From positions 1 to 39,954 of IMG/VR virus record IMGVR_UViG_3300020442_002391: 39,954 nucleotides of DNA; one strand, 5' to 3'. The position numbers and the translations under genes were made by a program. The DNA comes from a virus. Numbering within the stretch: position 1 is the stretch's first letter; the number at the start of each line of letters is the position of its first letter. The notes below the pieces were generated by a model. The model made no database searches and was not told the DNA's origin. It saw only the letters and a program-made list of their open reading frames with translations. Shown here in pieces: positions 1-5,100 of the stretch.

Positions 1-969
1 ACTATCGCTATAGATGAGGTCCAAACTGTCAAGAATCCCACGAAGTTCCTTGATGCGAACAGAGATAACTTTCAACAATTCGTCACCATCGGAGACATTG
101 CTGGTATTCACATAAAAATTCAAGCGAGTCTTGATACCTTCGGCAGCACAAGCAAGGAAGGTAGGAAGAAAGTCACGAATCCACACACTCTGCGATGCTT
201 CGTGCAAACGATCGACAATATCAGTAGTAACAGTAGCACCAGAATTAAGAATAGTAATACCATGCTTTCTGTAAACCCCAACAATACCGTTAGCACCAGT
301 GCGATCAGTGTAGTTGGTCAGGAACGAATCTTTAACCTCTTTCTTGAAAAGATTTCGTTTGAGATTGGTACGGTTGATAGCAATTTCATGAACTGCAAAA
401 GTTTCAACCCAATCATCAATCATTTCCTCAGTAACATCAATACCCTTCTCTTTTTTACGGCGAATGTATGCCTTTCCACGGGCAAAGTAGTCATCGTAGT
501 TAGATTCAGTGCCGTCAGGTTGTGGTTGGTGAAGAAGACCAACCTCATCAATTACATCACCGTCATCATAACCATCATTGGCAGCATAAACATCAACAAG
601 CATCCACTCGTAGTTGTTGGCAACATACCACATCCAGCGGTGGTTGCCATTCACCAACCAGTTTTCCAGTTGGTTGGTGTCTTCATTCAGAAGAATCGCA
701 GGGGGCAGTTTGCCAATCTTGTAACCCTTCTCCAAGGAACGTGCTACACGGTCGTACACTTTGCGGTCATTACCACGCTTACGACCCACGTTTTTGCGGA
801 GTTTGATGTCTTTGGTATTCACGATTGCAGTATAAAGATACCTGCAACTTGCATACTCAGGGCGAACATAACCCTCAACTTCACGCTTCAGATGAAGCAT
901 CTCGTCCGTATCTTTCGGATGTGCAATATAATCCGAAGGAATTTGGATTCCAAAACCCTTAACAGTCAT
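1..969 (-). CDS. ParB/sulfiredoxin-like domain protein, 3' end outside window
   Basis: The reading frame opens with ATG at 969 and runs without a stop through base 1, giving at least 323 residues; the C-terminus lies outside the window. Residues 60-130 look like a ParB/Srx-type domain: a basic stretch, then LPPAILLNE and the box NGNHRW (residues 107-112), which matches the G-x-HR-x signature of ParB N-terminal domains. The rest (acidic 130-165, basic helix near 170, mixed alpha/beta after 210) I do not recognise. In phages, ParB-like domains occur in DNA-modification loci and as nucleases or CTPases, so a role at DNA is inferred, not shown. It lies directly downstream of a split adenine methyltransferase in the same direction but has its own sigma70-type promoter. 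The family call is moderately sure; the activity is unknown. Confidence 0.7.
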   Translation of the reverse strand, partial: MTVKGFGIQIPSDYIAHPKDTDEMLHLKREVEGYVRPEYASCRYLYTAIVNTKDIKLRKNVGRKRGNDRKVYDRVARSLEKGYKIGKLPPAILLNEDTNQLENWLVNGNHRWMWYVANNYEWMLVDVYAANDGYDDGDVIDEVGLLHQPQPDGTESNYDDYFARGKAYIRRKKEKGIDVTEEMIDDWVETFAVHEIAINRTNLKRNLFKKEVKDSFLTNYTDRTGANGIVGVYRKHGITILNSGATVTTDIVDRLHEASQSVWIRDFLPTFLACAAEGIKTRLNFYVNTSNVSDGDELLKVISVRIKELRGILDSLDLIYSDS

Positions 970-1068: not shown

Positions 1069-1470
1069 CTAGAAAAACTGTTCCAACCCCACTGGATTTC
1101 CGAAAGAATAGTCGTATTCTAGTGCATCAGCGCAAACATAATGAGGGTGAGTTACATCAACTCCAAGATTAGCGCACAGTTCTTTATGATTATCTTCCAT
1201 ATATTCGACTGCATATAACATATTATCCAAAACATACGTCTCATCATGATACTTGCAGAGACGATTCTTAAGAGCAATCAAAAAATTACCACATCCCGCA
1301 GAGTTATCGATGAACGTACTCTCGGGATCTTTTAGTAGATCTAGATCAATATCATCTATCATACTCTCAACGAGATCCATCGGAGTAAAAACTTCTTGAG
1401 TTTCCTTGATTCTCTCGTCGGAACGATCAATCGAAGATCCTACATCTAGATTGTGCTTGTTCTTTGCCAT
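1069..1470 (-). CDS. DNA N6-adenine methyltransferase, SAM-binding half (motifs X and I-III)
   Basis: The 133-residue protein carries the front half of an N6-adenine methyltransferase. TQEVFTP (residues 24-30) is the usual lead-in; DNSAGCGNF (55-63) is the glycine-rich motif I that binds S-adenosylmethionine; AVEY (87-90) fits the acidic motif II, and CADALEYD (113-120) fits motif III. The protein stops where the catalytic NPPY motif would follow in the common gamma-type order. That motif is instead at the start of the gene just upstream (1427-2041), so the two products together would make one enzyme. The start overlaps that gene by 44 bases in another frame and has its own Shine-Dalgarno (AGAGG, about 8 bases before ATG), which favours two separate polypeptides. 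An in-frame TAG four codons before the ATG confirms the start. Target site unknown. Confidence 0.8.
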   Translation of the reverse strand: MAKNKHNLDVGSSIDRSDERIKETQEVFTPMDLVESMIDDIDLDLLKDPESTFIDNSAGCGNFLIALKNRLCKYHDETYVLDNMLYAVEYMEDNHKELCANLGVDVTHPHYVCADALEYDYSFGNPVGLEQFF

Positions 1471-2041
1471 ACTTTTCCTCTAGACATTTATTATAGGTCG
1501 AGATCAAATCGTTCTTACCGAAATGGTATCTTCCATTACACTGGGTAGCAGCTTCTCGAAATCTACTACTAAATTCTACCATATCTTTAACTACGAGAAA
1601 ATCTCGTACCTTTAAAAAATGGTGTCCCTCGGCATAGTGGGTAAAGTTTTCTGTTTTGACTCTACCACTGGGTCCACAACCGTACTCACCAATGAATACA
1701 TCTGCTTCTTCTCTTCTATCATAAGGAAGAAACTCAAAATCTGGATGTTGATTTAGCATTGGAATCTCTCCAACACCAACAGCAAACCTTGATGTATTCT
1801 TTACTTTCCAGTATTGTTTTACTGCACTAATTCCATTTGGAAAAGTTGATGGATCTAAATCTTCATCAACATCACAATGGAGATGTCCTACAATCTTATT
1901 AAGAGACGAAGGTTTCCGTACAGAAGTAGGAAGAACTGCACGAATATCATCTGTAAGTTCTGAAGTCTTGTTGAGGAACTTGATTGCAAGGTTTCCACCC
2001 ACCCCGTAAGGTGGATTTATAATAGCCAAGCTAAACTTCAT
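1427..2041 (-). CDS. DNA N6-adenine methyltransferase, catalytic and target-recognition half
   Basis: The 204-residue protein begins with the catalytic motif IV of adenine methyltransferases, AIINPPYG, at residues 6-13. ELTDDIRAVLPTS (28-40) fits the strand and helix that follow motif IV. The remaining ~160 residues have no further methyltransferase signature and probably hold the target-recognition domain. There is no SAM-binding motif I in this protein; it is found in the next gene (1069-1470), which overlaps the 3' end by 44 bases. The gene order is therefore IV, recognition, X, I-III, the circularly permuted order of beta-class enzymes, but on two polypeptides. The normal FD-type residues that precede NPPY are reduced to the eight residues before it, so the split falls at the III/IV boundary. 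A strong sigma70-type promoter lies upstream (2068-2096). Confidence 0.8.
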   Translation of the reverse strand: MKFSLAIINPPYGVGGNLAIKFLNKTSELTDDIRAVLPTSVRKPSSLNKIVGHLHCDVDEDLDPSTFPNGISAVKQYWKVKNTSRFAVGVGEIPMLNQHPDFEFLPYDRREEADVFIGEYGCGPSGRVKTENFTHYAEGHHFLKVRDFLVVKDMVEFSSRFREAATQCNGRYHFGKNDLISTYNKCLEEKYGKEQAQSRCRIFD

Positions 2042-2102: not shown

Positions 2103-5100
2103 TTAGTGGAGATTATCCCAACTACCGTCACTTCTGACTTGTAATTTATTATCAGTTGTGTTATAAATGATAGAACCATCTGGAATATTACCACCAGAAT
2201 ACATTGTATTTCTTTCGGTGGTTGACATTCTTGGGAATGTAACTGCATTCAGTCCAGTTCCATTGTAAGTAGTAGTAACAACCCCACAGAAGACACCAGT
2301 TGTGCCAATACCAACTTCTAATCTTTCTTCATCCTGGTTGAAGATCATTGCCCCAGGCATGATTTGTCCTGTGCTTCCACCAATGTCCATGATTGTTTGC
2401 AATCCTGGATTATCGATGAAGTATTGCTTAGAGGTTGCATCATGAACTGGTGGTAAGAAGTAATCACCAGAAGAACCTAAATCTAAACTACAACGTGCAA
2501 CGAAGGTGTTAATACCAACCTTCATCATGTAGTCTGGGTTTCTTGCTGCAACATTAGAATTAGATGCAACAGCAGGTTTTACACTATCATCATTATCACT
2601 TGCAACAAAAATTACACTACCGCCACCATCTTTGATGACTGCCATATCACCAAATACTTGGAACTGTCCATAGTTAATTGCTGGTAGGTTATCCGCACTA
2701 ACCAGAGGTCTGAGATCATTTGATAAATTGGTCGAAGCCACTGCAATCGCACTGCTGGTATTTCTCATAAACAGAGAACCAGTTATCTGCTGATTACCAT
2801 GTACGGTTACAATTTCTCCATCAAAACTATTGGAATTGCCACCGAATGTAGCACTTGCAAAAGAACTTACTCCAACGGCAGCAAGTGATGAACCAACAGA
2901 AACGTTTCCTTGTGCAATTACATTTTGGAATGTACTAAATCCAGCATTAGCAACTACATTACCAATTAAAGTTCCATTAATTTGTGCATTGGTTGTTCCA
3001 AATGTTACTTGCTCTGCTCCTTGTCCAATGGTTAGGACACCAACGACTCTACCATCACCAGAAACAGCAAGATCTCCATTTACATCCATTGCAACGGATG
3101 GATCTTCTTTGTTGATTCCAACAACTCCACTGTATCCAGCAGAAATTATGGAATCACCTTTATGTACAACCTTAAATGCACCAGTAGTGTTAATACCAGT
3201 TCCTGCATTTAAGAGGACTTTAATATCACCCTCATCTCTGTTTTGAATTGAGAGTTCTTTGTTGTTAAATGATATTGTTCCAGAATCATTACCAATGCCT
3301 AGAGTTTCTCCAAGAGCAAGTTGTGCTGTTGTTCCAATAATCTCCGTTGTTGTAACACCACCACCAAATACTGTTAGTGTGCTTGATAATGATCCTGTGG
3401 ATCCAATACCAATTCTATTATTAGCAGTGTCAACATAAAGGTCAGTGCCACCAACGTATACATCAGATGTAAATCTTGATTGTCCAGTTACTTCAAATTG
3501 ATGAGTTGCCTTTACAATTTCTGTGGTTGCTGTTAGTTCTAAATCACCACTTTGTGTCTCAAGTGTCTGATTAGATAGTTTTAGTTCACCAACATAGAGT
3601 TCACGGTAAGATTTTGATGAGGATCCAAGATCCAGAGTTTTATTACCATCTGGGAGTATATTACCAGTAAAAGTAACAACACCAACTGGACTGAAGTTCT
3701 CAATAGTTACGGAAGAACCAGGTGCTTTTAGAATCAGGGATGTACCACCGACTGATGCTATTACATTATCATCAGTAACGCCAATAGTAACATCATCAAT
3801 GTGTATAGCACCAAATCTTCTAGAACCGTCACCAAGATCTGCACCCTTATCTGTATCTGGATATAGACCCTGATTAACCGTTGCAAGACCAGTAACAATT
3901 AAATCAGACGAAACAGTGACATTACCAACAGAATCTAAAATTAAATTACCAGATGTGGAATCAACGGTATTACCATCGATTCTTACATTATCAACAGTAA
4001 GAGAATCACTAGATGCGGATGTTGCTACCAGTGTTGTTACAGTACCAACTCCAGTAACAAACAAGTCTGAGGTTGTAGTAACACCGGTTACTTGTAAACT
4101 AGACCCATCAAAGGTAAGATTATTATTACCCTCAATTGTTCCAGTGGAAGTTGCATGAAGAACTTGATTGTCTGCTAGACCAGGAACTTTAATATTACCA
4201 TCTGCGTTAATTTGCCCAACAAAATCAGATGTATCAGATACAGTTAAGTTTGTAGTGCTAGTGATACCAGTAACTGTGACACCATATCCAGTTGTTTCAA
4301 TCTTTTTAAGGTTGTTGTGGTAGAGTTCTACAGAACCATTTTCATTGAAGACTGCATAATCATCACCACTGTTCTGATGCTTGATCTTAACATTAGTGCT
4401 AGATCTAATTTCTACATCACCTGTTGTACCTTCAATAATATTCAGCGTATTGCTAGAATCGTGATAAATCTGTAGGTCATTACCAGCACCAAACATTACT
4501 TTGTTATTATCACCAAGCAATACTGAAGATGCTATAGAAACATTAGCATTAAATGTAGATACACCACTAGCGGTAGTGTTAGTAACACTTAACGAATGAA
4601 TATTAGTTTCAGAAAGTGTGGTAATACCAGTAACAAATAGTTCTTGTAAGTCGAGACCAGTTAAAGAGAAGTCTTGTGGTAATCTGGCAGTAGGGATAGT
4701 ACCAGATGTGAAGTTGGATGCATTGAGACTTGTTAATCCTGCACCAGATCCAACAAATGATGATGCTGTTATAATACCGCTTGCTTTGATATCTCCAACA
4801 CTGTTTATACCTACACCAAGTTCTACCGAACTATCTGGGCTTCCAGCAACTTGGAAAACAAATGATGGATTTGTGGTTGCAACACCCACATTTCCTGCAG
4901 AATAAATGCTCGTAAATCCTAAACCAGGATCTACATCAATCCACTGTGATGTTGGTAGATTAGATAGTTGTGATCCATCACCAGAGAAGGTTGCACTGAT
5001 AATTCCAGTATTTCCAAAAAACTGAATACCAGTACCAATCGCAACCTGATTAAAGGTCGCGATTCCAGTAACGAAAACATTTGTTGTGGTAACTACACCA

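Follow-up and report, generated by a model that had tools for sequence, protein, structure and literature searches.

A predicted two-subunit gamma-type DNA adenine methyltransferase in T4-like cyanophages, with a conserved SAM-binding module and exchangeable NPP[Y/F] subunits in relatives

Two overlapping genes with complementary methyltransferase motifs

The window analyzed here is an IMG/VR virus record of 39,954 bases, and its gene content is that of a T4-like cyanophage. Two overlapping open reading frames lie on its minus strand: P0001, with motif IV and a presumed target-recognition region (TRD), is followed by P0002, with motifs X and I to III (Table 1). The original prediction had placed the catalytic motif and the recognition region in the upstream gene, and the SAM-binding motif with motifs II and III in the downstream gene; the reading frames and motifs were found as it described. 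It had also regarded the products as separate proteins, and the AGAGG, the ATG and the in-frame TAG of P0002 are all present. The next gene (positions 1-969, minus strand) is open at the window end and resembles PSSM2_038 of P-SSM2, a phage in which genes for a ResIII helicase and an N4/N6 methylase come after PSSM2_038.

Table 1. Features of the P0001-P0002 locus, in window coordinates
Feature	Position	Strand	Description
P0001	1427..2041	-	Predicted catalytic/recognition subunit, 204 aa: second Rossmann half from strand beta-4, and target-recognition region
Motif IV, NPPYG	2003..2017	-	P0001 residues 9-13
Presumed target-recognition region of P0001	1457..1795	-	About residues 83-195 (approximate); M.TaqI/CamA alignment reaches their C-terminal DNA-reading domains
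TAG stop in P0002 frame	1480..1482	-	9 nt before P0002 ATG
AGAGG, Shine-Dalgarno-like, for P0002	1477..1481	-	6 nt before P0002 ATG
P0001/P0002 overlap	1427..1470	-	44 bases; P0002 in +1 frame relative to P0001
P0002	1069..1470	-	Predicted to bind SAM, 133 aa; first half of the Rossmann fold with motifs X and I to III, stops before strand beta-4
Motif X-like EVFTP	1381..1395	-	P0002 residues 26-30; E26, F28, T29, P30 invariant in alignment A2
Motif I DNSAGCGNF, gamma-type SxGxG	1282..1308	-	P0002 residues 55-63; G59, G61, N62 invariant
Motif II region YAVEYMED	1192..1215	-	P0002 residues 86-93; Y86, E89, D93 invariant
Motif III region CADALEYDY	1108..1134	-	P0002 residues 113-121; Y119 invariant, A116, L117 and Y121 nearly so

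The N-terminus of P0001 is MKFSLAIINPPYG, with NPPY at residue 9 directly after strand beta-4, and thus there is no room upstream for SAM. Residues N9, P11, Y12 and G13 are invariant among 24 relatives. No match to P0001 was found in Pfam. The AF2 model of P0001 (pLDDT 85.8) can be aligned, starting at residue 1, with M.TaqI 97-413, CamA 157-577 and M.BseCI 125-570; these segments follow motif III in the three enzymes and include the recognition domain. The alignment to M.TaqI 97-413 covers about 180 residues with a Z of about 7, a value that is weak if taken alone and that agrees with the motif and the model matches. As in gamma-class enzymes, [N/D]PP[Y/F] lies on beta-4 in P0001, and the remaining strands of the sheet and the presumed TRD come after it.

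P0002 carries motif I in the SxGxG form, a gamma-class feature (PMC8187626), with motif X ahead of it, and not the FxGxG of beta-class kin. Its family profile matches regions close to the N-terminus of CamA (3.6e-5) and of M.BseCI (9e-4), and also BsaXI, through motifs X and I; the profile matches among PDB methyltransferases included gamma-type enzymes and no recognised beta-class enzyme. In Pfam, P0002 gives only a sub-threshold N6_Mtase match. The protein ends in a short tail where beta-4 would start, and no catalytic motif is present. On the linear model PDLC03273 (432 positions), P0002 covers positions 41-90, and gp86 of phage Bellamy, the partner of a P0002 relative, covers 105-413. The break had been predicted to fall at the III/IV junction of a gamma-type enzyme, and P0001 indeed starts at beta-4 and P0002 stops after motif III. 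The motif complement of the two halves suggests that both subunits are needed for activity.

Recurrence of the pair and its fused and linear relatives

About 123 retrieved loci, not all of them independent, contain the pair in the same order, and 69 distinct pairs are represented among them. The pair is widespread in cyanophages and T4-like phages and is present in P-SSM2, P-SSM5, S-SKS1, S-CAM7 and many IMG/VR contigs. The median dN/dS over the 69 distinct pairs is 0.096 and 0.102 for the two genes, and both are under purifying selection. Because the two genes are found together in a fixed order across these loci under such selection, the arrangement is not a chance observation. The 44-base overlap that had been predicted holds for the window and not as a general trait, as the overlap in relatives is mostly 14 or 20 nt; the Shine-Dalgarno of P0002 is absent in P-SSM2-type relatives. 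Variants of motif IV were noted, namely NYPY in L002 (S-SKS1) at 3433 and NFPY in L303 and L327 near 6400.

Split pairs also occur in Straboviridae (Shigella phage PSD9, Klebsiella phage KpV477 and Vibrio phage phi-ST2), where a LEM-3-like GIY-YIG domain lies ahead of the NPPY part. A scan of bacterial genomes with alignment A2, whose patterns suit close relatives so that wider bacterial occurrence could escape it, returned one relative, 60% identical, on a Rhodobacteraceae MAG contig (L340, 739-1143), and this contig may be phage DNA.

In the Aeromonas phages Aeh1, PX29, AsFcp_4, phiAS5, 65 and CC2, a single protein begins with the NPPY part and ends with the X-I-II-III part. The predicted motif order of IV, recognition, X and I to III, as in the beta class, is borne out by the gene order in the window and by this natural fused protein; since the Aeromonas phages carry one NPPY-first protein, the swapped order is real. 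The N-terminus of the CC2 protein shows a weak likeness to P0001 (29% in a stretch of about 70 residues). Modelling of the CC2 protein gave a mean pLDDT of 64.5, with both ends good and a low-confidence middle. Its residues 1-364 align with the beta-class enzymes M.BceJIV (Z 10.0) and M1.HpyAVI (9.8), and residues 1-366 with CcrM (9.3). By halves, the same model aligns with gamma-class enzymes, residues 1-119 with M.TaqI 96-244 and residues 288-382 with CamA 10-151 (2.0 A, 24% identity). Z values of this size are moderate, and their weight comes from the agreement with the motifs. Taken together, the alignments and motifs indicate that gamma-type halves in beta order can plausibly build a single-chain Rossmann fold, and the two chains of the window are plausibly the same two halves, unjoined. 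As a fused homolog exists, we infer that P0001 and P0002 are in contact, although the model behind this is of moderate quality. A single-chain relative in gamma order is also known among phages, ORF100 of E. coli phage V5, which matches P0001 residues 2-179 with 26% identity.

One P0002 family and many NPP[Y/F] partners

Among distinct P0002-type genes whose upstream DNA spans 1.7 kb or more, an NPP[Y/F] protein lies directly upstream or is fused in 128 of 133, and downstream in 1 of 125. The five exceptions are two loci with NFPY (L303 and L327), one unlinked pair (ACG-2014f), L307 and one distant gut-phage relative. The P0002-type proteins form one family, and 121 partners fall into eight groups that have no detected similarity after the motif; some partners are fused to helicases, and their lengths reach about 1,100 residues. 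On the P0002 tree, which has few columns and leaves many forks unresolved, no fewer than 16 changes of partner type are needed, the minimum possible being 7, and sister rows with different partners are supported at 100/96 and 99/90.

Many partners carry a degenerate half-Rossmann ahead of NPPY. The gamma motif I was sought in partners with at least 50 residues before NPPY, and it is absent in all 48. The idea that a gamma gene was duplicated and trimmed at both ends fits these relatives, in which the NPPY protein keeps a first Rossmann half and lacks the gamma motif I. For such partners, the degenerate half makes a simple completion of the sheet by P0002 less obvious. Partners in L123, L269, L286, L268 and others share a conserved 'IIGDPxGxHS...WENDPRHIYTI' before NPPY that looks like a degenerate half-Rossmann.

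In ACG-2014f C24, a single P0002-type gene occurs with three NPPY proteins, of which two begin at beta-4, and in ACG-2014f C25 the sole NPPY-only protein found is about 100 kb from P0002. Wherever a relative of the C25 NPPY-only protein was found, a P0002-type gene was also present (35 of 35 phage records, most of them near-identical ACG-2014f isolates). In L352 (1157-2062) and in ACG-2014f records, the NPPY-only gene is labelled hypothetical or DNA methyltransferase, with a doubtful 'cytitidyltransferase' feature under the same match. The overlap and co-translation had been offered as the basis of a heterodimer; they are not required, since the distant halves of ACG-2014f are both kept. Unlinked homologs, which had been put forward as an argument against the pairing, do occur in some relatives (ACG-2014f), but there they point to assembly in trans and do not speak against a complex.

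The relation of P0001 to P0002 may thus be one-to-many rather than a fixed pair, and sharing of P0002 among several partners is plausible. Alternatively, the enzyme could be permanently one-to-one, the partner diversity reflecting different fixed pairs with no sharing. Most loci have a single partner adjoining a single P0002, and in S-CAM7 there are two P0002 genes with a separate NPPY partner close to each, as this alternative would have it; the three NPPY proteins against one P0002 in C24, the wide separation of the one-each halves in C25 and the exchange of partners on the P0002 tree argue the other way, and we regard fixed pairing as possible but somewhat doubtful.

In Synechococcus phage Bellamy (L137, 701-4396), a ResIII helicase, the NPPY protein gp86, the small gp87 and the P0002-type gp88 lie together. 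The gp87 protein contains a GID...QFKFK stretch resembling a nuclease core, with no match in Pfam or PADLOC, and the region is possibly a phage-borne restriction-like cassette. The ResIII helicases, GIY-YIG domains and a possible nuclease near relatives of the pair suggest either self-protection or such a cassette.

A probable two-subunit adenine methyltransferase and its place among known enzymes

The sequence and model data make it very probable that P0001 and P0002 constitute a two-subunit gamma-type DNA adenine-N6 methyltransferase, in which P0002 is a conserved SAM-binding module and the NPP[Y/F] recognition subunits are exchangeable in relatives. P0002 would contribute strands beta-1 to beta-3 with motif X, motif I (the SAM pocket) and motifs II and III, and P0001 would contribute beta-4 with the catalytic NPPY, the remaining sheet and the region for DNA sequence recognition. 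In the putative complex, beta-1 of P0002 would lie beside beta-4 of P0001, which would bring SAM next to the flipped adenine. Methylation specificity could then shift by exchange of the NPP[Y/F] subunit alone. The likely role would be to label phage DNA as protection from host restriction or from a nuclease of the phage itself. It could well be, and we would put it no more strongly, that T4-like phages use one conserved SAM-binding half-enzyme together with several interchangeable catalytic/recognition half-enzymes within a single cell, so that DNA methylation specificity evolves by swapping half an active site.

A target other than adenine in DNA, such as cytosine N4 or RNA, is unlikely: NPPY-like motifs are known in other amino-methyltransferases, and KsgA and Trm proteins match P0001 structurally over its first 80-90 residues, but the full-length matches of P0001 are DNA adenine methyltransferases with recognition domains, and partners adjoin restriction-type helicases and GIY-YIG domains. 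P0002 might instead have a regulatory or structural function, in the manner of METTL14 with METTL3, and bind no SAM for catalysis. Partners with a degenerate N-terminal half do resemble a complete fold that might bind SAM in an unusual way; P0001, however, starts at beta-4 without a place for SAM, and P0002 has invariant core positions in motifs X and I, which makes such a role very unlikely. That the genes are decaying, non-functional halves of a former single-chain methyltransferase is scarcely credible: split genes can signal decay and both products are short, but the same split recurs in many contigs and isolates with dN/dS near 0.1 in both genes and intact motifs, and fused relatives retain both halves.

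The alpha, beta and gamma groups are assigned by motif order (PMC8187626), and the predicted two-subunit enzyme has traits of two of them. With gamma-class enzymes (M.TaqI, CamA, M.BseCI and the M.EcoKI type) it shares motifs X, I (SxGxG) and NPPY, the fold of each half and a recognition domain after the catalytic half, but these have the linear order X-I-IV-TRD in one chain, whereas the window pair consists of two chains, IV-TRD and then X-I-III. Beta-class enzymes (CcrM, M.BceJIV and M1.HpyAVI) have the order IV, TRD, X, I-III that the P0001-P0002 gene order follows, and the fused homolog aligns with them lengthwise; they are single polypeptides, however, whereas there are two ORFs in the window and its relatives (fused in Aeromonas phages), and the phage halves are gamma-type by sequence.

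In Type I systems, HsdS serves only for DNA recognition, and the SAM site and catalytic motif are both located in HsdM. The phage system resembles HsdM/HsdS in having a common subunit and exchangeable specificity subunits, and differs in that the catalytic motif belongs to the exchangeable part. M.AquI and M.EcoHK31I are natural C5-cytosine methyltransferases of two polypeptides and so resemble the window pair in forming one methyltransferase from two chains; unlike the pair, they act on cytosine-C5, are cut in the variable region or have only motif IX apart, and are unpermuted, with no shared subunit reported in the passage cited (PMC3404938). A jumbo-phage review (PMC7824862) mentions circularly permuted EcoKI-like DAMs in one sentence; these are likewise gamma-type phage methylases for which permutation is noted, but no split pair or shared subunit was found in that paper. 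APU01582.1, cited there beside the permuted EcoKI-like version, was considered as a permuted example, and its sequence proved linear. A literature search for a split methyltransferase pair in phages found no description in the journals within its reach, most subscription journals lying outside it.

To our knowledge, modular methyltransferases alter their specificity through a swap of the recognition domain or subunit, with the active site kept whole. The division of the predicted phage enzyme falls inside the Rossmann fold and separates the SAM site from the catalytic motif, and it is the catalytic part that appears exchangeable. Linear, split and fused-permuted forms exist side by side in phages, which makes the route between gamma and beta order by gene permutation, long discussed, directly testable. 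The results also give a likely function to families that are labelled hypothetical in well-studied cyanophages, e.g., PSSM2_036 and 037 of P-SSM2.
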